Part shown: piece after piece, positions 31,018-45,320 of the stretch
Layout: every line of letters starts with the position of its first letter
Numbering within the stretch: position 1 is the stretch's first letter
From: Mariprofundus aestuarium
GTDB taxonomy: Bacteria; Pseudomonadota; Zetaproteobacteria; Mariprofundales; Mariprofundaceae
Assembly: GCF_002795805.1 (NCBI RefSeq)
Contig: NZ_CP018799.1
Span: forward strand, 2,039,001 to 2,103,000
Reading direction: 5' to 3'
DNA: 64,000 nt
The notes under the pieces: model-generated
What the model was told of the DNA's origin: nothing
Databases searched by the model: none
Seen by the model: only the letters and a program-made list of their open reading frames with translations
Position numbers and translations under genes: made by a program

Positions 31018-32304
31018 TTAGACGATCATACCTGCGCCAACAGTGTTGTTAGTGAATGTATCAATCATAATAAAGCTGCCGGTAATACGATTATCCACAT
31101 AACGATCGTAGTGCAGCGGTTTCATCAGCTTCAGGGTAATCTGGCCGATCTCGTTCATGGCCAGCTCGTCTGCATCCTGCTGATGATCCAGCGTATGGAT
31201 ATCTGTCTTGAAATCGATACTGGCCACCATCGCCTTCACGCTATTGGTCGTGTGCTTAACGATGTATTTCTGACGTTCTGTAAGTGGCTCATCGCCAATC
31301 CAGCAGACATTGGCTGTCAGTTCCTTGGCATCCATCGCCTTGTCGCCAACGTGGGTGAGCATGTCCCCGCGTGACACATCAATCTCATCATTGAGCGTCA
31401 GCGTCACACTCTGCGGTGCAAATGCTTCATCAAGGTTGCCATCGAAGGTGACAATCTCTTTGACTGTAGAGCTGTTGCCGCTCGGTACGGATACGATTTT
31501 ATCGCCGACTTTAACGGTACCTGAAGCAATCGTGCCCATGAAGCCACGGTAATCAGGAAGGTCGACGGTCTGCGGACGGTTCACCAGCTGAACAGGCATA
31601 CGGAATGGCAGGCTGTCGATATCGCCCAGTGTGGAGAGCGTCTCCAGGGTTTCCAGCAATGTTTTGCCTTCATACCAGTTCAGGTTATCACCGCGTACGG
31701 CAACCATGTCACCATCAAGTGCCGACATTGGCAGGCAGATCAGATTCTTCACGCCCTGCTTGTCGCAGTAGGCCTGCATCTCTTCGCGAATATTCTCATA
31801 GATCGCCTGATCAAAACCAACCAGATCCATCTTGTTCACCGCCACAATCAGGTGGGTAATGTTCAACAGTGCCAGAATATGGGTATGACGCTTGGTCTGC
31901 GGCATCACACCGTTGCGTGCATCGATCAGGATAATCGCAGCACTAGCGGTCGAGGCACCAGTCACCATGTTGCGGGTATATTGCTCGTGGCCCGGACAGT
32001 CGGCCATGATGAACTTGCGTTTCGGGGTGGCGAAGTAGCGGTAAGCTACATCAATGGTGATACCCTGCTCGCGCTCAGCGGAGAGGCCATCAGTCAGCAT
32101 TGCCAGATCAATCTCGGATGCCGAAGCGATATGATGCTCCTGCCCCTTCTTCTTGCGTACGGCCAGAAGCTGATCCTCGAACGCACCCTTGGTGTCCACC
32201 AGAAGGCGGCCAATCAGCGTCGATTTACCATCGTCCACACTGCCTACCGTCACCAGTCGCAGCAGTTCGATCTCTTCAGTCATCTTAATATTCAGTTCAG
32301 TCAT
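31018..32304 (-). CDS. cysN: Sulfate adenylyltransferase subunit 1 (GTPase)
   Basis: With CysD, activates sulfate to APS at the cost of GTP. 428 residues, shorter than E. coli CysN (475) but with a complete EF-Tu-like core: GSVDDGKST (21-29), DCPGHEQY, NKMD, and two beta-barrel domains. It lacks a CysC (APS kinase) extension. Last gene of the operon, before the terminator at 30962; a hairpin repeat separates it from cysD. Confidence 0.95.
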   Translation of the reverse strand: MTELNIKMTEEIELLRLVTVGSVDDGKSTLIGRLLVDTKGAFEDQLLAVRKKKGQEHHIASASEIDLAMLTDGLSAEREQGITIDVAYRYFATPKRKFIMADCPGHEQYTRNMVTGASTASAAIILIDARNGVMPQTKRHTHILALLNITHLIVAVNKMDLVGFDQAIYENIREEMQAYCDKQGVKNLICLPMSALDGDMVAVRGDNLNWYEGKTLLETLETLSTLGDIDSLPFRMPVQLVNRPQTVDLPDYRGFMGTIASGTVKVGDKIVSVPSGNSSTVKEIVTFDGNLDEAFAPQSVTLTLNDEIDVSRGDMLTHVGDKAMDAKELTANVCWIGDEPLTERQKYIVKHTTNSVKAMVASIDFKTDIHTLDHQQDADELAMNEIGQITLKLMKPLHYDRYVDNRITGSFIMIDTFTNNTVGAGMIV

Positions 32305-32468: not shown

Positions 32469-33395
32469 TCAGAAGTAACCCTCTTTCTTTTTGTCTTCCA
32501 TACTGTTGGAGCCGTGATCGATGATACGCGTTTCACGCTCCGAGCGGCGTGCTGCTGCTGCCTCGATGACAATCTCATCCATGTTCGTTGCATCCGAACG
32601 CACGGCACCGGTACACGGACTGCAACCCAGCGTACGGAAACGGCTCATCACCATCTTCGGCTCCTCGCCTTCAAGCAGCTGATCCTTCATCTCTTCATAG
32701 TAGGGAATCAGCAAATTCTTGCGCTCCACCATCAAGCGCTCCTTGGCAAAGTAGAGCGGTACAATCGGAATCTTCTCCTCGCGGATATAGAGCCAGACAT
32801 CCATCTCGGTCCAGTTGGAGATCGGAAATACACGTACGCTCTCACCTTCATGAATACGACCATTGTAGAGGCTCCACAACTCAGGACGCTGGTTCTTCGG
32901 ATCCCACTGGCCGAACTCATCTCGCATCGAGAAGACACGCTCTTTGGCCCGGCTTCGCTCCTCATCGCGACGTGCACCACCAAAGGCAGCGTCATACTCA
33001 CCCTCTTCCAGCGCATCGAGCAGCCCCTGAGTTTTCAGTGCGCCGCAGCAGCGGGCCACACCGTGATCCTTCGGATTCATGCCCTTGGCAATCGCATCCT
33101 CGTTTTTTCGCACGATCAGATCGGCGCCCACCTCTTTGCAGTAGTCATCGCGAAACTGATACATCTCTTTGAACTTGAAACCGGTATCCACATGCAGCAG
33201 CGGAAACGGCAGCGGTGCAGGATAGAAAGCCTTGCGTGCCAGATGCAGCAGCACGCTTGAATCCTTACCCACCGAATAGAGCATCACAGGGTTGCGGAAC
33301 TCCGCCACCACTTCACGGATGATATGAATCGACTCCGCCTCCAGCGCTTTAAGCTGTGTCAGTTTATGTTCTGATATTTCACGTTCAGACATCAT
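32469..33395 (-). CDS. cysD: Sulfate adenylyltransferase subunit 2
   Basis: The catalytic PP-loop subunit of ATP sulfurylase. 308 residues (E. coli 302). The PP-loop [13 protein letters not shown] is near residue 41-53, the GARRDEE motif near 149, and the family C-terminal GCSPCTGA motif is present. It has a good GAGAAG-type site and lies 21 bp after cysH. Confidence 0.96.
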
Positions 33396-33416: not shown

Positions 33417-34139
33417 TTAAATTCCTTCACCATCTTCGATATCGCCAGTTACCTGCTTGATACTCATCACATGCAGGCCGCACTCTGCCACACCGTCATC
33501 ATTTTCCCACCACCAGCGACCGGCACGTTCATCCTCGCCCACCGTGATGGCACGCGTACAGCATTCGCAACCGATGGACTGATAGTGGGCATCATGAAGC
33601 CTGTTGTATGGCACACCGTTGGTGCGCACATACTCCTCCACATCGTTCAGGCTCCACTCCAGCAACGGGTTGTACTTTTTCAAACCGTACACCACATCAG
33701 TTTCAATCAATTGAAGATCGGCACGCCCCTTCGACTGCTGGCGGCGCCTGCCGGTAATCCACGCCTCTTTACCTTCCAGTGCCCGCATCAGCGGCCGAAC
33801 CTTGCGAATTTCACAGCAGTCCTTGCGCAGTTCTACCGACTTCCTGAACAGGTTTACCCCATGCTCACGAACCATCGCTTCAACTTCATGGCAGTCGGGA
33901 AAAAGAACCCTGACCCGTATCCCGTAGCGTTCCTCAAAGGCAGAAACTACATCATAGGTTGCCTGCGGCAGACGCCCGGTATCAAGTGTCATAATAGGGA
34001 TATCGAGGCCATTTCTGCAGATCAGGTCCACCATCACCGAGCCTTCCAGCCCCATGGAGCACGGGTAGACCAGAGCATCGCCATGGGTCTCCTTGGCCAC
34101 TCTCAGCAGCTTCACTGCCTGTTCAATTAAAGCACTCAT
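33417..34139 (-). CDS. cysH: Adenylylsulfate (APS) reductase, assimilatory, CysH family
   Basis: Reduces APS to sulfite using thioredoxin. 240 residues, and it has both CC 108-109 and C191/C194 (GCECC), which hold a [4Fe-4S] cluster in the APS-using branch of the family; PAPS-specific E. coli CysH lacks them. The catalytic cysteine is C220 in the ECGLH block. No APS kinase (CysC) is encoded here, consistent with direct APS reduction. The start is followed upstream by the transporter fusion, 3 bp apart. Confidence 0.92.
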   Translation of the reverse strand: MSALIEQAVKLLRVAKETHGDALVYPCSMGLEGSVMVDLICRNGLDIPIMTLDTGRLPQATYDVVSAFEERYGIRVRVLFPDCHEVEAMVREHGVNLFRKSVELRKDCCEIRKVRPLMRALEGKEAWITGRRRQQSKGRADLQLIETDVVYGLKKYNPLLEWSLNDVEEYVRTNGVPYNRLHDAHYQSIGCECCTRAITVGEDERAGRWWWENDDGVAECGLHVMSIKQVTGDIEDGEGI

Positions 34140-34142
34140 CTG

Positions 34143-36776
34143 TTACCCGATCCTTCCCAGTAGCGGCCACCAGACCGATACGGTTATCATAAATACTACA
34201 AATGCGGTCAGGGAGAGAACAGCCCCATAACGCAGCATATGCGAAGCTCGCACGTAGCCTGTTCCGAATATCATGGCATTCGGCGGTGTTCCCATCGGCA
34301 GCATAAAGGCAAAACCGGAAACGATACCGACAGTCAGTGCCGCCGTGACCGGGTCGATATTTGATGCTACGGCAAGTGGAACGGCAACCGGCAATACAAT
34401 GGCAACAGCAGCAGCATTGCTCACCCCTTCGGTAAACAGCAATGTAATCAGTGCCAGCATCGCCAGCAGTGCCAGCCCGGCAATACTCTCAGGGAAGAGC
34501 AGGTGGGCGAGCCACAGGCCCGCTCCGGTAACAGTCAGCGCCTTGCCAATGGCAATGGCACCGCCATACATCAGTACGACACCCCAGTTCACATGCTCTT
34601 CAACCGCTCGCCAGCTCACAAGGCGCAGCGCAAACATCACCACCACGCTGATCAACGCAATGCCTGCTAGGGAACTGGCATGGCCAGCCAGTATCCAGGC
34701 GAGCATGGTCACCAGCAGCAGCAAAGCCATCGCTTTTGCCTTCAGGTCAAAGTCACCCAACTCAAGGCGGCGAAGGGAGATGCGTTCACGGGCCGAAGAG
34801 ATATCCAGCCCTCCCATCGGTGTAACACGGATCAGCACAATGGCAGAGACTGCCAGTACAGAGAGTGCGATTGGTGCTGCAGCAAGCGTCCAGTCGGCAA
34901 AGGAGAAGGAGCGACCTGTCAGCTCCTCACTCAGCGCCATAGCCAGTGGCCCGCGCGCACCACCCAAAAGGGTGATCACACCGCCGGTAATCGCACCCCA
35001 CGAGAGAGCAAAAAAGATCGACTGCGCATATCGGCTTCCCGCCTTAAGCCCCAGGCTTCGCACAATTTCCCATGCGATCGGCAGAAACAGCGCGGCCACA
35101 GCATGCTCGGGCATGAAACATGCCATGACAGCGGGCAATAGAAGCATGGTCAGCAGCAGGCGAGTCGGACTGGTTCCAAAACGGTCAATGGTCAATAGCG
35201 CCATGCGCTCGGAGAGGCCGCTCTGCATCGCACCAGCGGCCAGCATGAAAGCACCCAGAATGAAGAACACCGCAGGATTGCCGAACAGTGCAAACACATC
35301 GGTAGCCGGTAATACGCCAAGCAGAGGCAGCAGCGCCAGCCCTAACAGTGACGTCACCGCCAACGGCAGCAGCTGTGTTACCCAGAGAACCAGGCAGAGC
35401 ATAAAGACGATAAGCGAGCTCCAACCATTCTGGCTCAACCCTTGCGGCGCATCCATGGTTCCGGCAGAAATCGCCAGCAAAGAAATCACCACCAACGCTG
35501 CAAAAGGCAAAGCCTCTCCCGCCAGCAGCACATGCATTGGCCGGCGATCCAACTGCGTTCCATTCTCTCCATCATTGCTTGCCCGCAGATGGCGGCGCAA
35601 GCCATCCACCCATCCATCCAAGCGGCGCCCCATCGAAGATGATACCCAGCGCTCCGCCAGTGCAGGTTCACCGCCATCAAGCACACGACTCTCCATCGGC
35701 GTCATTACGCGCCCCATATGGCGCAGTCGATGCGTGGGGAACTCCTTCTGTTTCAATGCCGCGTAGAGGTGGAGAAACAACTCCTCCATCTCTTCCAATG
35801 ACGGTAGCTCATGTTTCTCCAGCGGCGTTCCCGGCAGCGGCCTGAAAGGCTGCAGCAGCGGCACAACTCCGTGTGCAATCAGCGCATCGATGCCCTTCTT
35901 GCTTGAGTCGATATCCTCAAGGCCAACGATGAGGTTGCTGACCACAGCTCCGGTGCGAAACACCTCGCGGGCATGGTCCAGTGCTTTCCAGATGGCCTTC
36001 TGACCACCAGAGGAGGCCTTTCCGGGACACACTTCTGCAAAACGATCAGCATCGTGCAGCTCAAGGTTACAGACAAACACATCAAGCCCTGCCGCATAGA
36101 GTGCATCGATAACAGCTGTATCCTTGGGTGCAACGGTTTCAAGCGCGATCTGACGATGACCAAGGTGCCTCCTGAGCAGGGCAATGACCGGCACAAGTCG
36201 ACCGAGTCCCGCATCATCACCGGGAGCAAAACTGTTGTAGAGGTAGACAGTATCAACCTCACGCTCGGAGAGTGCGGCACGCACCACTTCAACCAGCTCA
36301 AGCGGATCTCGCAGTGGCGGCTCACTCTCATTGAGCATCGAATCGTACTGGCAGTATTGACATGCCTTGCCACGCTCGGCAAAGAAGCCGCAACCCATCA
36401 GCGGGTTAAGCATCAGCAGGTTTTCATGCAGGGAAGAGAAACTACCCATGCGGGCACCGGAACGGGTCCTGTTACGATAGAAGCGTGGTGCAGGAAGCAG
36501 TTGAACCTCAAGCGATTCATCCTGCCAGGTCAGGCGAGCGGAACCTTCACCGTCCTCCTGAGTCAAGCGGATCGGACTCTGCTCGGTATAGGGCTGTGCT
36601 ACGGGAACCGTTGCAAAGTGGCCACTGGGCAGCCTGATATCCACAACAGATTCGGTCGCATTGGCCTGTGCAACCCAGCGTGACGCATCGGACAGCCCGT
36701 CCGGCAGCGTCACACCGTGGTTCACCAGCGCCAGCTTGCAGCGCCCCGGATTCTCGAATGGATTCATGGCTCCCAT
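34143..36776 (-). CDS. Fusion of a radical SAM enzyme with an SLC13/DASS anion transporter
   Basis: 877 residues in two parts. Residues 1-400 look like a radical SAM enzyme: a cysteine motif C129-x9-C139-x2-C142 (atypical; the classical spacing is CX3CX2C), then VYLYNSF, ALETVAPKD, CNLELHD and NLIVGLED as strands of a barrel. Residues 415-877 hold about 11-12 membrane helices with SLC13 features such as GNPAVFFILGAF, FTEGVSNAAAVAIVLPVAVP and MLPMGTPPNAMIFGTGYV, which fits a sulfate-type symporter. The gene lies between cysH and the sulfite reductase, so sulfate uptake is the likely job of the C-terminal half. The role of the enzyme half is unknown. Some residues between 395 and 415 are a linker. 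A start at 36767 is also possible. Confidence 0.85.
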   Translation of the reverse strand: MGAMNPFENPGRCKLALVNHGVTLPDGLSDASRWVAQANATESVVDIRLPSGHFATVPVAQPYTEQSPIRLTQEDGEGSARLTWQDESLEVQLLPAPRFYRNRTRSGARMGSFSSLHENLLMLNPLMGCGFFAERGKACQYCQYDSMLNESEPPLRDPLELVEVVRAALSEREVDTVYLYNSFAPGDDAGLGRLVPVIALLRRHLGHRQIALETVAPKDTAVIDALYAAGLDVFVCNLELHDADRFAEVCPGKASSGGQKAIWKALDHAREVFRTGAVVSNLIVGLEDIDSSKKGIDALIAHGVVPLLQPFRPLPGTPLEKHELPSLEEMEELFLHLYAALKQKEFPTHRLRHMGRVMTPMESRVLDGGEPALAERWVSSSMGRRLDGWVDGLRRHLRASNDGENGTQLDRRPMHVLLAGEALPFAALVVISLLAISAGTMDAPQGLSQNGWSSLIVFMLCLVLWVTQLLPLAVTSLLGLALLPLLGVLPATDVFALFGNPAVFFILGAFMLAAGAMQSGLSERMALLTIDRFGTSPTRLLLTMLLLPAVMACFMPEHAVAALFLPIAWEIVRSLGLKAGSRYAQSIFFALSWGAITGGVITLLGGARGPLAMALSEELTGRSFSFADWTLAAAPIALSVLAVSAIVLIRVTPMGGLDISSARERISLRRLELGDFDLKAKAMALLLLVTMLAWILAGHASSLAGIALISVVVMFALRLVSWRAVEEHVNWGVVLMYGGAIAIGKALTVTGAGLWLAHLLFPESIAGLALLAMLALITLLFTEGVSNAAAVAIVLPVAVPLAVASNIDPVTAALTVGIVSGFAFMLPMGTPPNAMIFGTGYVRASHMLRYGAVLSLTAFVVFMITVSVWWPLLGRIG

Positions 36777-36790
36777 AGCTTCAGTGCGCT

Positions 36791-39151
36791 TTAGATATCG
36801 CCACTCTTCTCAACCCGGATTTTCCACTGGGTCTCGGAGATCTGCTCTTTGGAGAGCACCTTCTGCCCCTGCTCAATAAGTGAGAGCGGCACATTCTCAA
36901 TCGGCGCACCGTCATCAAGGATCACATCCAGCTGTGAGCCGACAGGCATCATGGTGAGTTTGATCTTCGTCTTCACAAAGTTCATCGGGCATGCGACACC
37001 GGAGAGGTCGAGAAGAACAACATCGGCAGCTGCTTCAGTGGTCTCCGCAGCAGCTTCAACCACCCCTTCAACCGCTTCAGGTACAGCAGAAAAACGTTTG
37101 GCCGCCAAGGCCAGCCAGTCACTCTGCACCTCTTTCAGCCTGGTAACACCCGCCCCCGGATCCGCCAAGTCGATACTCATCAGAGCCGACTGCACTGCAG
37201 TCAGACCTGCAATCACATCTGCATCAGCTGCAGCATTGGAGGCCAACAGCGCGAACACGGTTGCATCATCTTCCGGCGCTTCACCATAAGGAACCAGATA
37301 GGCGCGTGCTGCTGAGATAGCCGAACGGCGTAGTGCTGTCAGTGCTTCTGCCCAGAACATCGCATCAAGATGCGCACGTGCAATCAGCATCTCATACTCA
37401 GCTTCAGAGATCAGTGCATCCGACATTGAAAGCACCGCACCTGCACACTCACCCTTTTTGTTGCCCTTGGTATTGAATGCCTCGTTCTCGCTCCAGTCGT
37501 AGATCAGCCCTTCAACCTCGCCGGCATCAGCGGCAAATGGCGCCAGAATCTCTGAGATGCCCTCTTTGCCCAATCGCGTTGCCCAATCGTGCATGGACTC
37601 ATTTTCGTTGCGCCCTTCTTTATAAGCATTGAGCACTGCAATGCCCGCCTCCGGCGCATACTTGGCAGGAACAGGATCAGTCGCGAATGCCAGTGGGGAA
37701 CCGGCAACACCGGAACCACCGACATGCAGCTGATAGTGCGGCACAGCCTGACCGGCCACCTTCTTGGCCATGCCATGGAACCCGAGATCGGCAATGTGGT
37801 GGCGACCACAGGAGTGCTGACAGCCGGATGCTTTAACCGTAATACCGGCCAGCGTGCCATCCTTTTTCAGGTCGGCCATCAACGGCTGCAGAGCAGCTGC
37901 AAGACCGCGACTTGAGGTGATACCCAGACGGCAGGTCTCCGTGCCAGGACACGCCACGACATCGGAAATGCCACGTGCATATTCAGTCTGCAAACCTGCA
38001 GCGTTCAGGATCGCCAGAGCGGCATCAACCTTTTCAGCATCAACATCACAGATCACCATACCCTGCTCGGTCGTGACACGCAGCTCATCCGTTCCGGCAG
38101 CACGCGCAGCATTGGCCACTGCACGGCACTGATCCGGGGTCATATCACCACGGAACAGGTTCAACAGAATCGCGGATTTGCCATTGTGCTGATCCACCAC
38201 ACCGGAATCGGCAAAAGGAAGCGTGCCGGTTGGCGTACGCCAGTTCGCTTCACCGTAACCTGAATCATCGGCATGGGTCTTCTCGATCACTGCACGCTGT
38301 TTTCTGTACTCTTCGATAAACCCTTCGGCACCAAGCCTCTGCGCCACATACTTCATACGGGCGCGGGCACGGCGTTTGCGATCGGAGTATTTGAAATGCA
38401 TACGCATCAGCGCTTCACCGACAACAAACAGTTCAGACTCCTGGATAAACTCTTCCAGCAACAGTGCGCCCATAGGCTGGGATGAGAGGCCACCGGCCGC
38501 CCACACCTGGAATCCGGGCTTGCCATCTTTGTGGGTCGCGATGAAACCGGCATCGTGCATGCCTGAAAGGCCGCAATCGGTAGCACAACCGGAGAAGGTC
38601 ACCTTGAACTTGCGTGGAAACTGCTGTCCCAGCGGATGGCGCAGATAAAACTCTGCGAATTTACGCGCGTGAATGGTCACATCTGCATGCTCAGCGGGGC
38701 AACGACCAGCCAGAAAACAGGTGGTTACATTACGAACCGTGTTACCGCACGCTTCACGCGTAGTCAGGCCAACTGCATCGAGTTTGCGCAGAAACTCCGG
38801 CACATCATCGAGAGAGACAAAGTTGGCCTGGATATCCTGCCGCGTCGTTACATGTGCTACCTTCTCAGGTGCTTCGGTCAGCGTACCATCAGTCGGCAAA
38901 CATCCGGCATAGAGCTCAACGCACTCAGCCAGCACATCCATCTGATCCGCAGTGACACAACCACCGGGCAGCTTGGCGCGCACCATCTGCACCCCCTCCT
39001 GCCGCTGGCCGTAGACGCCCATCTGCAGACGGAACGGCGTAAACCGCTCTTCGGACATGCGTCCCTCTTTAAACGCCTTGTAACCCGCCTCGAACTCATC
39101 GACATCGGATGTGTGTGCAAAATCAAATTCAGTTGCCATAACTAACCCCAT
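36791..39151 (-). CDS. Siroheme-[4Fe-4S] sulfite (or nitrite) reductase with C-terminal TusA domain
   Basis: 786 residues. Residues 1-560 are a ferredoxin-type nitrite/sulfite reductase: GNTVRNVTTC (136-145), SGCATDC (187-193), and in the second half the siroheme-cluster cysteines C401-x5-C407 and C444-x3-C448. A helical region (about 560-700) and an Ala/Glu linker follow. Residues 710-786 are a TusA-type sulfur carrier with its cysteine at C721 in GVACPMNF. The sulfur operon points to sulfite as substrate. The reductase would make sulfide, and the TusA domain could take it or pass it as persulfide. Start may also be ATG 39139. Confidence 0.9.
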   Translation of the reverse strand: MGLVMATEFDFAHTSDVDEFEAGYKAFKEGRMSEERFTPFRLQMGVYGQRQEGVQMVRAKLPGGCVTADQMDVLAECVELYAGCLPTDGTLTEAPEKVAHVTTRQDIQANFVSLDDVPEFLRKLDAVGLTTREACGNTVRNVTTCFLAGRCPAEHADVTIHARKFAEFYLRHPLGQQFPRKFKVTFSGCATDCGLSGMHDAGFIATHKDGKPGFQVWAAGGLSSQPMGALLLEEFIQESELFVVGEALMRMHFKYSDRKRRARARMKYVAQRLGAEGFIEEYRKQRAVIEKTHADDSGYGEANWRTPTGTLPFADSGVVDQHNGKSAILLNLFRGDMTPDQCRAVANAARAAGTDELRVTTEQGMVICDVDAEKVDAALAILNAAGLQTEYARGISDVVACPGTETCRLGITSSRGLAAALQPLMADLKKDGTLAGITVKASGCQHSCGRHHIADLGFHGMAKKVAGQAVPHYQLHVGGSGVAGSPLAFATDPVPAKYAPEAGIAVLNAYKEGRNENESMHDWATRLGKEGISEILAPFAADAGEVEGLIYDWSENEAFNTKGNKKGECAGAVLSMSDALISEAEYEMLIARAHLDAMFWAEALTALRRSAISAARAYLVPYGEAPEDDATVFALLASNAAADADVIAGLTAVQSALMSIDLADPGAGVTRLKEVQSDWLALAAKRFSAVPEAVEGVVEAAAETTEAAADVVLLDLSGVACPMNFVKTKIKLTMMPVGSQLDVILDDGAPIENVPLSLIEQGQKVLSKEQISETQWKIRVEKSGDI

Positions 39152-39257: not shown

Positions 39258-40091
39258 TCAGTCGCCGAACTTCAACTCACAGGCCTGTTCATAGGTGACC
39301 AGCTCGGTAATGGTTGGATTCTCTCCGCACAATGGGCAGCCAGGGTCCTTGCGCAGTTTCAGCTTCTTCCACTCCATACGCAGTGCATCAAAGACCATCA
39401 GCTTACCGGCCAGAGAATCACCGATACCGAGCAACTCCTTCACCGCTTCAACAGCTTGGATGGTTCCCACAGCTCCGGCCAGTGCGCCGAGAATGCCCGC
39501 TTCCGAGCATGATGGAACCAGGCCTGCCGGTGGTGGCTCCGGATAGAGACAGCGGTAACATGGCGCTCCCTTCACCTGATGCGGCTTGAATGTCGCCACC
39601 TGCCCTTCAAAACGGAACATCGCACCGGAAATCAGCGGTATCTTCTCCATATAACAGGCATCATTGACCAGGAAGCGGGTCGGGAAATTATCACAACCAT
39701 CAATCACCAAGTCATAATCGCGGATAATGTCGCGAATATTCTCTTCGGTAACAAAGTAGTTGTAGGTGTTGACCTTCACATCCGGATTCAGCGCCTGAAT
39801 CGTCTCGCGCGCACTTTCCACCTTGGGCATGCCGATGCGATCCTGGTTGTGGATGATCTGGCGCTGCAGGTTGGATGAGTCCACCACATCCGCATCAGCG
39901 ATACCGATGGTTCCCACACCGGCGGCAGCCAGATAATAGGCAACAGGTGAGCCGAGCCCTCCTGCGCCGATCATGAACACCTTGGACTCAAGCAGTTTGC
40001 TCTGCCCCTCGGCACCGACTTCCGGCAATATAATATGGCGCGAATAGCGCTCGATCTGTGCTTCTGTAAAATCAATCAATTCAAACTCCAA
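39258..40091 (-). CDS. moeB: MoeB/ThiF-like adenylyltransferase (E1-like)
   Basis: 277 residues. Activates the C-terminal glycine of a ubiquitin-like sulfur carrier by adenylation. ATP loop GAGGLG at 42-47, SSNLQRQ, and zinc cysteines in CYRC and CPLCG. It has no rhodanese domain, so sulfur must come from another donor. In this operon the probable partner is the ThiS/MoaD-like protein at 41581 and not molybdopterin synthase. The assignment moeB rather than thiF or hesA is by likeness only. Confidence 0.88.
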   Translation of the reverse strand: MEFELIDFTEAQIERYSRHIILPEVGAEGQSKLLESKVFMIGAGGLGSPVAYYLAAAGVGTIGIADADVVDSSNLQRQIIHNQDRIGMPKVESARETIQALNPDVKVNTYNYFVTEENIRDIIRDYDLVIDGCDNFPTRFLVNDACYMEKIPLISGAMFRFEGQVATFKPHQVKGAPCYRCLYPEPPPAGLVPSCSEAGILGALAGAVGTIQAVEAVKELLGIGDSLAGKLMVFDALRMEWKKLKLRKDPGCPLCGENPTITELVTYEQACELKFGD

Positions 40092-40217: not shown

Positions 40218-41150
40218 CTAGACTTCGATGCCTTTGAACAGGTCGGTAGACATATAGCGCTCAGCCATTGATGGTAGAATCACGACAATGCGCTTGCCCT
40301 TCATCTCAGGTCGGCATGCGATACGAACAGCCGCTGCCACGGCCGCACCTGATGAGATTCCACCAGGAATACCCTCTTCATCGGCAAGGCGACGCGCCAT
40401 GGAAAAAGCTTCGTCATTGGTCACCTTCTCGACGCCATCGAGAATATCCACATTCAGATTCTTCGGAATAAAGCCTGCACCGATACCCTGAATTTTATGC
40501 GGCCCTGGCGCTTCACCGGAAATCACAGGTGAATCTGCAGGTTCAACGGCAAATGCCTTAAATTCAGGATTACGCTGCTTGAGAACCTCGGTTATTCCGG
40601 TAATCGTGCCGCCTGTACCAACACCGGCAACAATCGCATCAACCTTTCCATCGCAGTCAGACCAGATCTCCTGAGCGGTGGTTTGGCGATGAACCTCTGG
40701 GTTGGCGGGATTCTCGAACTGCTGTGGCAGGAACGCCCCTTCAGTCGAACTGGCGATCTCTTCAGCCTTGGCAATCGCACCCTTCATGCCCTTCTCTGCA
40801 GGTGTGAGCACCAACTCGGCACCGAGCAGCTTAAGAAGCTTGCGACGCTCCAGACTCATCGATTCAGGCATGGTCAGGATACAGCGGTAACCCTTGGCGC
40901 GGGCAACGAAGGCCAGTGCAATACCGGTATTGCCACTGGTCGGTTCAACAATAAGCCCACCAGGTTTCAGTCGCCCATCCGCCTCGGCCGCTTCGACCAT
41001 CGCCTTACCAATACGATCCTTTACCGAATTCAGCGGATTAAAGAACTCCAGCTTGGCAACGATTTCAGCACCACAGTCAGCGCCGATCCGGTTCAGACGA
41101 ACCAGCGGGGTATTTCCAATCGTTTCAGCAGCATTGTTATAAATCGCCAT
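40218..41150 (-). CDS. cysK: Cysteine synthase A
   Basis: Makes cysteine from O-acetylserine and sulfide with PLP. 310 residues; PLP lysine K44 in [18 protein letters not shown], and GTGGTITG phosphate loop near residue 178. It stands downstream of the sulfur-carrier genes in the operon, so a carrier-bound sulfur donor, as used by the CysM/CysO pair of mycobacteria, cannot be excluded. Confidence 0.94.
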
Positions 41151-41580: not shown

Positions 41581-41859
41581 TTAGCAGCCGCCTGCAATTG
41601 CCGGAACGATGGAGAGCTCATCACCATCTTTCAGTGCGGTAGCGCGACCCTCAAGGAAGCGGACGTCTTCATCGTTCACATAGACGTTCACGAAACGGCG
41701 AATTTCGCCGGCATCGTCACACAGGCGCTCTTTCAGACCTGGATGTGCAGCCTCAAGAGCCTCAATCACATCACCGACGGTTGCACCGTCTACGGATACT
41801 TCGTCAGATCCACCAGTCAGCTTACGCAGTGGGGTAGGAATACGTACAGTTACACTCAT
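41581..41859 (-). CDS. ThiS/MoaD-like ubiquitin-fold sulfur carrier ending in Gly-Gly-Cys
   Basis: 92 residues of beta-grasp fold. The sequence ends AIAGGC, so the Gly-Gly used for adenylation and thiocarboxylation (G90-G91) is followed by one cysteine. The last residue must be removed before a MoeB-type enzyme can act, or the Cys itself has a role. In known protein-thiocarboxylate pathways (CysO of Mycobacterium; HcyS of Wolinella) a metalloprotease trims or releases the carrier; none is encoded in this operon. Linked to thrC, cysK, moeB and a NIL gene. Confidence 0.88.
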
Positions 41860-41894: not shown

Positions 41895-43145
41895 TTATGC
41901 GTCGGCCACGCCGTCGGCTTCGGCCAGCAGATCAAACTCTTTCAGGCTGGCGTTGATAATACGCGGTTTGGTGATCGCATCCACTATCGCTTCCTGCGTC
42001 TTCAGGCCGTTACCGGTAATGCAGAGCACAATCGACTCATCGCGAGGCAGCTTGCCGGACTCAATCATCTTCATGGCACAACCCAGTGTTACTCCGCCAG
42101 CAGTCTCAGCGAAGATACCCTCGGTCTCGGCCAGAAGCTTCATGGCTGCCACCACCTCTTCATCAGAGATGTCTTCTGCCCAGCCGCCGGATTCATTAAT
42201 CACGCGGTTGGCGTAGTAACCATCAGCAGGATTACCAATGGCCAGTGACTTGGCGATGGTATCTGCATGAACAGGGTGAATCATATCGGTTCCGTCTTTC
42301 ACAGATTTAGCAATCGGTGAACAGCCGGTCGCCTGCGCACCGTACACAGCAGTACCATTGTCTTCGATCAGGCCGAGTTTGATAAACTCCTTGATCGCCT
42401 TGTCCACCTTGGTGCAGAGCGAACCGGAAGCCATAGGGACAACCACATGTTTCGGTGCTTTCCAGCCCAGCTGCTCCATCACCTCATAAGCCAGTGACTT
42501 GGAGCCTTCAGCATAAAACGGACGTACATTCACGTTCACAAAAGCCCAGCCATATTTGCCAGCCACTTCAGAACAGAGGCGATTCACATCGTCATATTTA
42601 CCTTTAATGCCAATGATATTGGTACCGAAGATACCAGCGCCGAGCACCTTGCCCTGCTCCAGATCGTGTGGAATGAACACGTAGGATTCCAGGCCTGCAG
42701 CAGCCGCATTGGCGGCAACGGAACCCGCCAGATTGCCTGTAGAGGCACAGGCCACAGTGGTAAAGCCAAACTCAACGGCCTTGGAAAGAGCCACGGAGAC
42801 CACGCGATCTTTAAAAGAGAGGGTCGGATAGCAGACCGAGTCATTCTTGATATAGAGCTCTTTAACACCAAGCACCTTCTCAAGACGCTTTGCACGCACC
42901 AGCGGTGTAAAGCCGTTCTGTGCACCGACAGTTGGCTCGCCATCAATCGGCAGCAGCTCTTTATAGCGCCACATAGTCTGCGGGCGGGACTCGATCAGTT
43001 CACGGGTAAACTTACCCTCCAGCTTGTGATAATCGTAAGCCACCTCAAGCGGACCAAAGCAGAACTCGCATACATGCGTAGGCTCAATCGGATACTCCTG
43101 CCCGCATTCACGACACTTCAGCGCTCGAACGATACTTTCACTCAT
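41895..43145 (-). CDS. thrC: Threonine synthase with N-terminal zinc ribbon
   Basis: Converts O-phosphohomoserine to threonine with PLP. 416 residues. A four-cysteine ribbon (C11, C14, C26, C29) precedes the PLP domain with LSFKDRVV (Schiff-base lysine) and CASTGNLAGS. ATG 43145 follows GGAG at 8 bases. It is first in the sulfur operon, directly under the SAM-I riboswitch. Close relatives of ThrC in such clusters may use sulfur carriers in homocysteine synthesis, so a role other than threonine is possible but not shown. Confidence 0.88.
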   Translation of the reverse strand: MSESIVRALKCRECGQEYPIEPTHVCEFCFGPLEVAYDYHKLEGKFTRELIESRPQTMWRYKELLPIDGEPTVGAQNGFTPLVRAKRLEKVLGVKELYIKNDSVCYPTLSFKDRVVSVALSKAVEFGFTTVACASTGNLAGSVAANAAAAGLESYVFIPHDLEQGKVLGAGIFGTNIIGIKGKYDDVNRLCSEVAGKYGWAFVNVNVRPFYAEGSKSLAYEVMEQLGWKAPKHVVVPMASGSLCTKVDKAIKEFIKLGLIEDNGTAVYGAQATGCSPIAKSVKDGTDMIHPVHADTIAKSLAIGNPADGYYANRVINESGGWAEDISDEEVVAAMKLLAETEGIFAETAGGVTLGCAMKMIESGKLPRDESIVLCITGNGLKTQEAIVDAITKPRIINASLKEFDLLAEADGVADA

Positions 43146-43182
43146 GATAGACACTCCGTTTTATCAGGCGCATCCAGAAACG

Positions 43183-43211
43183 AAAAAACCTCCGCGATAG
43201 ATGCGAAGGTT
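43183..43211 (-). terminator. Intrinsic terminator of the SAM-I riboswitch
   Basis: On the minus strand AACCTTCGC pairs with GCGGAGGTT (one G-U), followed by six Ts. It lies about 60 bases after the aptamer and about 37 bases before thrC, the usual expression platform for transcription attenuation. Confidence 0.85.
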
Positions 43212-43269
43212 GTCTATGAATAAAACACGGATGTGCTCTAAACGAACAACCCGCCATCATCGCTCCCTC

Positions 43270-43390
43270 CGTGATTACTCACTTTGGGCAGGCATTGGCA
43301 CCATTCTCCAGAAATCATCAATGATGTTCTCTGGCCGGTTGCCGCAGTTTCACAGGGCCTGTAACCCTCCACCGCTCTGGATAAAGCCGG
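43270..43390 (-). promoter_or_regulatory. SAM-I (S-box) riboswitch aptamer
   Basis: Reading the minus strand from 43386: TTTATCCAGAG, then GGTGGAGGG, GGCCCTGTGAAA, GCGGCAACCGG, and AATGGTGCCAATGCCTGC, ending with GTAA pairing back to TTAT. These are the conserved blocks of the SAM-I aptamer in the right order and spacing, including the GGCCC, GGCAACC and GGTGCCAA core. With the terminator below, SAM binding should stop transcription of thrC and the genes after it. Confidence 0.93.
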
Positions 43391-43685: not shown

Positions 43686-44759
43686 ATGATTACCGAAGCC
43701 GATATCCTCAAAGCACTGTCCGTCATCATCGATCCAGATTTCAAAAAGGATATTGTCTCGCTTGGCTTTGTAAAAAACATCGCCATAGAAGGTAAGCAGG
43801 TAGCATTCACGATTGAACTGACCACGCCTGCCTGCCCGGTAAAAGAGGAGTTCCGCCGCCAGGCCGATGAAGCAGTAAGCGCCCTACCAGGCGTTGAGAA
43901 GGTTGAGGTCACCATGAGCTCGAAGACCACTGCAAGCACTAGCAAGGACCACATTCCGGGGGTTGCCAACATTGTTGCCATTGCATCGGGAAAGGGTGGT
44001 GTCGGCAAATCAACCACCGCGGTAAACCTTGCTGTTGCCATGGCACAAACCGGCGCCCGCGTAGGCCTGCTTGATGCCGACATCTATGGCCCCTCCATCC
44101 CACGCATGATGGGACTTGCCGGTTACAAGCCGGAGATCGATCATGAAGCCAAAACCATACAGCCACTAGAGAACTACGGCGTTAAAACCATCTCTATCGG
44201 CTACCTGGTTGAAGAAAACCAGGCCATGATCTGGCGCGGGCCGATGGTGGCCAGTGCCCTGAACCAGTTACTCACCGATGTTGCATGGGGTGAGCTGGAC
44301 TATCTGTTTGTCGACATGCCTCCGGGAACCGGCGATGCGCAGCTTACACTGACCCAGAAGGTGCCGGTAACCGGCGCAGTGCTCGTAACCACGCCGCAGG
44401 ACATCGCCCTGCTCGACTGCCGCAAAGGTATCGACATGTTCCGCAAAGCACGCGTTCCGGCTCTAGGTATTGTAGAAAACATGAGCCAGTTTATCTGCCC
44501 TCACTGTGGTAAATCCAGTGCCATTTTTGCTGAAGGCGGCGCTGAGCGGTTAAGCCAGGAATACAAAACCGAAGTCCTTGCCCATATCCCGCTGGATATC
44601 AAAATCCGTGAGAAGGCGGATGAAGGCACCCCTATCGTTGCTGCGTTCCCCGATTCCGAACAGGCAGCACATTACAAGCGACTGGCGGGAGAGGTTGCCC
44701 GCAGAGTCAGCATCCAGAACAACCGCAAGATTGATATCCCGGTGATGATTCAGGAGTAA
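43686..44759 (+). CDS. mrp: Mrp/ApbC-type iron-sulfur cluster carrier ATPase
   Basis: Binds and transfers Fe-S clusters using ATP. 357 residues: N-terminal MIP18/DUF59 domain (1-78), then a P-loop (SGKGGVGKST, 101-110, of the deviant type) with DADIYGPS, and the cluster-binding CPHC motif near residue 262. First gene of mrp-dsrE2-tusA-methyltransferase, with a GGAG site. Confidence 0.95.
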   Translation: MITEADILKALSVIIDPDFKKDIVSLGFVKNIAIEGKQVAFTIELTTPACPVKEEFRRQADEAVSALPGVEKVEVTMSSKTTASTSKDHIPGVANIVAIASGKGGVGKSTTAVNLAVAMAQTGARVGLLDADIYGPSIPRMMGLAGYKPEIDHEAKTIQPLENYGVKTISIGYLVEENQAMIWRGPMVASALNQLLTDVAWGELDYLFVDMPPGTGDAQLTLTQKVPVTGAVLVTTPQDIALLDCRKGIDMFRKARVPALGIVENMSQFICPHCGKSSAIFAEGGAERLSQEYKTEVLAHIPLDIKIREKADEGTPIVAAFPDSEQAAHYKRLAGEVARRVSIQNNRKIDIPVMIQE

Positions 44760-44831
44760 TCGGCAGGCCTGTTTGCCCTTTTTCCGGCAACGACTAGGTT
44801 TCGCCGTCCAATTTCACATGGAGGTGCAGTC

Positions 44832-45320
44832 ATGACCCTGCCCGTTGATAAGAAAAAGATCTCCATCGTCTGCTTCTCCGGCGATTTCGATAAGATTGTA
44901 GCCGCCTTCACCATCGCTACAGGCGCCGCCGCCACCAACCGTGAAGTCACCATGTTCTTCACCTTCTGGGGACTTAACGCCCTGAAGAAGAAAAAGGGCC
45001 GTGTCGCCACAGGCAAGAGCATCATGGCCAAGGCATTCAACTTCCTGATGGGAGGGCTGAACAACCTGCCACTCTCGCGCCTTAACTTCTTCGGTGCTAG
45101 TCCAATACTGATGTCTGGTATGATGAAGAAGCACAACGTTGCATCGCTTCCGGAACTGGTTGAAGCAGCACACCTGCTCGGCGTTCGCATCGTAGCCTGC
45201 GAGATGGCGATGCACATCCTTGAGGTTGAGAAGAGTGACATGATTGAAGAGGTGAAGGATGTAGCTGGTGTAGCGACCTTCCTCAACGAATCCGAAGATG
45301 CGCACATCATCTTCATCTGA
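44832..45320 (+). CDS. DsrE2-like (DsrE/DsrF family) protein
   Basis: 162 residues, one DsrE-type domain. MFFTFWGLNALKKKKGR is a landmark of the DsrE2 subgroup, with a conserved Cys in VACEMAM near residue 127 that can carry persulfide sulfur. Such proteins pass sulfur in sulfur-oxidation and relay systems together with TusA, which is the next gene. It may attach to the membrane through hydrophobic stretches. Confidence 0.85.
   Translation: MTLPVDKKKISIVCFSGDFDKIVAAFTIATGAAATNREVTMFFTFWGLNALKKKKGRVATGKSIMAKAFNFLMGGLNNLPLSRLNFFGASPILMSGMMKKHNVASLPELVEAAHLLGVRIVACEMAMHILEVEKSDMIEEVKDVAGVATFLNESEDAHIIFI

Follow-up and report, generated by a model that had tools for sequence, protein, structure and literature searches.

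The question raised by this locus is why a SAM-I riboswitch should stand ahead of a gene that annotation would call threonine synthase (thrC) and a series of sulfur assimilation genes. The window, that is, the whole stretch of DNA that was analysed, comprises 64,000 nucleotides of the Mariprofundus aestuarium genome (contig NZ_CP018799.1, positions 2,039,001 to 2,103,000). A first-pass annotation had proposed a SAM-I aptamer followed by an intrinsic terminator at 43183-43390, with the strand left unstated. An Rfam search gave RF00162 as the only match in the whole 64 kb, on the minus strand (43387-43254), scoring 58.7 bits (gathering score 44.4), with an E value of 5.1e-11 and model positions 1-108 of 108 covered. 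A terminator scan located the terminator just downstream, and the proposed interval fits the two elements together. All features are listed in Table 1.

Table 1. Features of the riboswitch leader and the operon (window coordinates).
Feature	Position	Strand	Remarks
SAM-I (S-box) aptamer, P1-P4	43254..43387	minus	RF00162 full length; kept in 38 genomes of the order
Antiterminator, 5' half	43246..43263	minus	43263-43259 (within P1 3' strand) and 43251-43246; pairs with terminator arms
Antiterminator, 3' halves	43213-43208 and 43198-43194	minus	ACAACC and ATCGC, inside terminator
Intrinsic terminator	43183..43213	minus	stem 43211-43187, 9 pairs, loop 7; U-run to 43183
metM-like gene (annotation would be thrC)	41895..43145	minus	PLP enzyme; PALP 219 bits; N-terminal CxxC...CxxC zinc-ribbon-like segment
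metO-like ThiS/MoaD sulfur-carrier protein	41581..41859	minus	ThiS 70 bits; NF041918 above cut-off; ends ...PAIAGGC
NIL-domain protein, 79 aa	41341..41580	minus	PF09383 46.6 bits, cut-off 24
cysK, O-acetylserine sulfhydrylase	40218..41150	minus	TIGR01139 458.6 bits
MoeB/ThiF-type E1-like adenylyltransferase	39258..40091	minus	ThiF 279.8 bits; NF004281 above cut-off
Siroheme sulfite reductase with C-terminal TusA fusion	36791..39151	minus	NIR_SIR, NIR_SIR_ferr; TusA residues 714-782
Radical-SAM domain fused to DASS/SLC13 anion (sulfate) symporter	34143..36776	minus	NF045502 164 bits, TIGR00785 241 bits
cysH (APS/PAPS reductase)	33417..34139	minus	ORF, assigned by reading; synteny
cysD (sulfate adenylyltransferase subunit 2)	32469..33395	minus	ORF, assigned by reading; synteny
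cysN (sulfate adenylyltransferase subunit 1)	31018..32304	minus	ORF, assigned by reading; synteny

The sulfur genes described earlier were all present downstream. The small NIL-domain frame had been missed, and the lead gene likely starts at the ATG at 43145, which has a GGAGTG ribosome site, rather than at the GTG at 43154 chosen before. The operon may be read as one transcript; this is uncertain because the intergenic gaps reach about 190 bp. The gap of this size between the NIL frame and cysK (41340-41151) holds a palindromic CAAAATCGGG...CCCGATTTTG repeat with no U-run after it, a possible internal regulatory site. The TusA domain at the end of the sulfite reductase suggests direct sulfur transfer. 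The fusion of a radical-SAM domain to the symporter is unusual, and the frame was open through both parts in six of seven relatives checked. Divergent genes for an ApbC/Mrp iron-sulfur carrier and a DsrE2-like protein (43686-45320) adjoin the riboswitch and are kept in only part of the genus. A sigma-70-like promoter at 43439-43412 was no better than shuffled sequence (one found, 0.7 expected) and is not claimed.

The arrangement is conserved in the order Mariprofundales. Among named organisms, the lead protein had its closest relatives in Mariprofundus and Mariprofundaceae. Of 41 genomes searched, 38 had a single RF00162 match each, with scores of 54.8 to 78.8 bits, and in all 38 the metM-like gene followed directly downstream, two copies being cut by contig ends. 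Aptamer and terminator were both readable in all 38 leaders, and the gene order metM-metO-cysK-E1-sir was kept across the order. The three genomes without a match are fragmented assemblies, so the absence is not firm; in one of them the metM-like gene itself is truncated at a contig end. A chance match can be dismissed, as riboswitch, terminator and gene order are repeated in 38 of the 41 genomes. By operon content and synteny it stands upstream of methionine and cysteine genes, where SAM-I elements are expected. No description of a SAM riboswitch in Zetaproteobacteria was found in the limited literature collection searched.

The label thrC for the lead gene, on which the earlier reading was built, is very likely wrong. 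A separate canonical thrC lies beside hom at 965808-966767 of the same genome and scores higher as a threonine synthase than the riboswitch gene. The lead protein reached 273 bits against NF006050, the best-scoring threonine synthase equivalog, which is under the cut-off of 303. It was 33% identical to the canonical ThrC of its own genome, 55% to a MetM-like protein of Nonomuraea, and 62-70% to homologues in Deltaproteobacteria, Planctomycetota, Nitrospira and Verrucomicrobia. In a first tree, where some ThrC rows were out of frame (taken from wrong ORFs or reverse-strand loci), a 100/100 branch separated all MetM-type rows from ThrC. In the corrected tree the formal one-branch count failed through a single mis-framed row (ThrC1_G038, 24% identity, very long branch), and the same split was obtained when this row was disregarded. 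With a tolerance of one row per group, the corrected alignment gave 28 positions near-uniform within the MetM and ThrC groups and different between them, some of them in segments close to the PLP and substrate sites; T139L, N208R, R211Y and GNAGN to ASGSL are examples of the differences from canonical ThrC. The lead protein neither grouped with the solved ThrC enzymes nor carried their near-invariant residues.

A described group to which the lead protein can be compared is MetM of Streptomyces. According to the account of Hasebe et al. (2024, AEM 90:e01247-24) given in PMC12172450, this enzyme is a homocysteine synthase that converts O-phosphohomoserine to homocysteine, its gene neighbours that of the sulfur carrier MetO, and an upstream SAM riboswitch has been reported for metM of S. 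albulus. The Mariprofundus gene likewise encodes a ThrC homologue of a separate group with a ThiS-like carrier gene next to it, both in the window and in relatives, and orthology to S. albulus MetM was traced via the Nonomuraea homologue and the citing paper. Unlike the Streptomyces pair, the Mariprofundus genes are joined to those for the NIL protein, CysK, E1, sulfite reductase-TusA, the symporter, CysH and CysDN in one conserved cluster, and the carrier ends in GG-C and not in GG. Judged by sequence, the lead gene probably encodes an O-phosphohomoserine-dependent homocysteine synthase of the MetM type.

The lead gene could instead be a true second threonine synthase, with SAM adjusting how the common pool of O-phosphohomoserine is divided between threonine and methionine. 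Such a role would suit the common PLP fold, the 264 bits against TIGR00260, which pass the cut-off, and the threonine synthase activity of a Microcystis homologue in vitro (PMC12172450). It is nevertheless improbable in view of the higher-scoring thrC beside hom, the 28 positions that set the protein apart from ThrC, and the pairing of the gene with a sulfur carrier and an E1 in a sulfur operon; nor is there a clear logic in repressing threonine synthesis at high SAM.

The distribution of homocysteine routes also bears on the identity of the lead gene. A full-length PF01053 enzyme (MetB/C/Y/Z) was present in 14 of the 41 genomes of the order and absent from 27. Among the 29 genomes tested, MetA occurred in exactly the 12 that bear MetY. 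MetX was ruled out as a route, with no real match in 29 genomes tested, and so was the DUF39/HcyBio route, which was absent from 29 tested. The riboswitch and metM were carried by 24 of the 27 genomes without full-length PF01053. MetH, which needs homocysteine, was found in 36 of the 41 genomes and in 23 of these 24. ThrB, the homoserine kinase that makes O-phosphohomoserine, was present in nearly all genomes tested, and CysE in all, one below the cut-off. Because of the gaps in PF01053, MetX and HcyBio alongside MetH, ThrB and CysE, no homocysteine route other than MetM can be seen in most of the order, and MetM would fill the missing step in the genomes without other routes. This, together with the separate thrC beside hom, the position in another clade and the sulfur-carrier partner, is why the lead gene is not regarded as ThrC. 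M. aestuarium itself has a metA-metY pair at 1682500-1688500 of its genome, a patchy second homocysteine route that is apparently not under a SAM-I switch; MetM therefore need not be its only route.

The presence of cysK and sulfate reduction genes in the operon, and of a carrier and an E1 that resemble the CysO system, would also suit an enzyme that forms cysteine from O-phosphoserine in the manner of CysO/CysM, with SAM controlling sulfur assimilation generally. However, the cysK of this operon is bona fide, cysE was found in every genome tested, the step left unfilled in 27 of the 41 genomes is homocysteine and not cysteine, and the family member described in the account in PMC12172450 makes homocysteine. 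A cysteine-forming lead enzyme is thus very improbable.

For the MetM-type reading the carrier protein deserves attention. Transfer of sulfur to an amino acid from a thiocarboxylated ThiS-like carrier is known from Wolinella HcyS and mycobacterial CysO, and MetM reportedly uses thiocarboxylated MetO. These systems would share the sulfur source with Mariprofundus, but they use MetY or CysM as acceptor enzyme and not a ThrC homologue. HcyS has an extra residue past GG which gets trimmed. Nearly all MetO proteins of the order have one or two residues after GG (14 GG-C, including that of the window, 6 GG-R, 6 GG-K, and others), while the MetO of Nonomuraea and of most Verrucomicrobia stops directly at GG. 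With residues past GG, a trimming step would be needed. All 33 genomes tested had a match to the JAMM peptidase family PF14464, above the cut-off in 32; the M. aestuarium gene lies at 1965527-1965886 of its genome, and the JAMM protein perhaps trims the MetO tail. The E1-like adenylyltransferase of the operon probably activates the carrier. Four deltaproteobacterial loci have an in-frame fusion in which a NIL domain follows the GG motif of the MetO-like carrier; there the GG end would become free only upon cleavage.

The RNA element was analysed by folding and by comparison of the leaders. The 205-nt leader folded with a z value of -3.26 against dinucleotide shuffles, and none of 200 shuffles equalled it. 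The ligand-free minimum free energy (MFE) structure of the window leader was the antiterminator (-75.1 kcal/mol), in which GGGUUGU and the P1 3' strand just before it are paired with the two arms of the terminator. With P1 forced, the terminator formed (-70.9 kcal/mol). The two structures are mutually exclusive and share the P1 3' strand, as is characteristic of SAM-I riboswitches. In the alignment of 38 leaders, 97.9% of cells were paired in the terminator, with two-sided changes in three pairs, and 91% in the antiterminator, with two-sided changes in five. The latter amounted to 12 two-sided cells; P1 and terminator together also gave 12. Neither figure was reached by any of 500 shuffles, and slid controls were much lower in both cases; covariation thus supports both structures. 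In two leaders both pairs of the shared base are exchanged together, C-G for U-A in P1 and G-C for A-U in the antiterminator. The antiterminator duplex could be drawn in nearly all 38 leaders, and in 10 of the 38 the ligand-free MFE structure contained the terminator rather than the antiterminator. The conserved core suggests that the aptamer binds SAM, and SAM-dependent termination of transcription at the predicted terminator is likely. That the fold is a relic and operon expression indifferent to SAM is extremely improbable, since the core positions are invariant in all 38 leaders and terminator and antiterminator are both kept with compensating changes, although the window aptamer scores toward the low end of the range for the order and the two pairs at the outer end of P1 are often open.

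Taken together, the element is with high probability a SAM-I OFF switch for methionine-precursor synthesis, with a MetM-type lead gene and the whole sulfur-to-methionine supply under one signal. At low SAM, the terminator arms would be taken up in pairs with the 3' strand of P1 and the nucleotides that follow it, and the operon would be transcribed. When SAM is bound, P1 would be held closed, the antiterminator could not form, and the terminator would fold and end transcription before the lead gene. The MetM-type enzyme would draw O-phosphohomoserine from the threonine pathway, and its sulfur would be delivered by MetO in thiocarboxylate form after charging of this carrier by the E1-like protein; the product homocysteine would be methylated by MetH. 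The remaining genes would serve sulfate import and reduction to sulfide. As the lead gene would make a methionine precursor, control by SAM would be ordinary feedback, and as the operon would also import and reduce sulfate, SAM would shut the entire sulfur-to-methionine supply by one signal. A more far-reaching proposal, which is tentative and rather unlikely, is that Zetaproteobacteria possess a closed line from sulfite reductase via the fused TusA and the E1-activated MetO to MetM, forming homocysteine with little free sulfide, with JAMM trimming the carrier tail and one SAM-I switch controlling all steps from sulfate uptake onward.

The riboswitch and metM are also associated outside the order. 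Of 34 loci from outside the order tested with Rfam, among them one from a further genome of the same phylum and that of Nonomuraea, 23 had RF00162 where the metM cluster begins or close by. The Nonomuraea locus has a SAM-I match of 68.7 bits, metM and metO. A look for sequence patterns at 67 loci agreed for most Verrucomicrobia. SAM-I, metM and the carrier gene occurred together as a module in Actinobacteria, Verrucomicrobia, Deltaproteobacteria, Planctomycetota and Nitrospira. The Nonomuraea gerenzanensis sequence of 11.85 Mb (NZ_LT559118.1) is filed as 'plasmid I', and it looks like a chromosome, carrying groEL and metM. In two further proteobacterial genomes examined, SAM-I stood elsewhere than at metM, in one of them ahead of metX- and metZ-like genes, the usual SAM-I context. 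Matches were also obtained in the control genomes of Thermus and Deinobacterium. Together with the loci of several other phyla, these show that SAM-I, described in the first-pass annotation as best known from Firmicutes, is not rare elsewhere.

Compared with other RF00162 members, the Mariprofundus element has the full aptamer and a transcription-terminating expression platform. It differs in its proteobacterial host, in a P3 region of variable length and in an expression platform sequence peculiar to the order. Control of sulfate assimilation by SAM-I had been considered unusual, but is known from Bacillus methanolicus, which has the arrangement (SAM)-cysH-sat-cysC-nirA (PMC4342826). That operon resembles the present one in having SAM-I ahead of sulfate assimilation genes; it has another gene order and lacks metM and metO. 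The other supposed peculiarity, SAM-I on thrC, falls away with a MetM-type lead gene.

Riboswitch-linked metM/metO is of a kind already known, to which a proteobacterial case and the coupling to sulfate assimilation are added here, along with comparative evidence pointing to MetM as the probable main methionine route in a zetaproteobacterial lineage. The apparent oddity of SAM repressing a threonine synthase would be removed. Many genes annotated as thrC that stand beside a ThiS-like gene under SAM-I control may be homocysteine synthases, and the association across several phyla means that the riboswitch context could be used to re-annotate this enzyme. For this group of marine iron oxidisers, MetM would fill a missing step of methionine synthesis.
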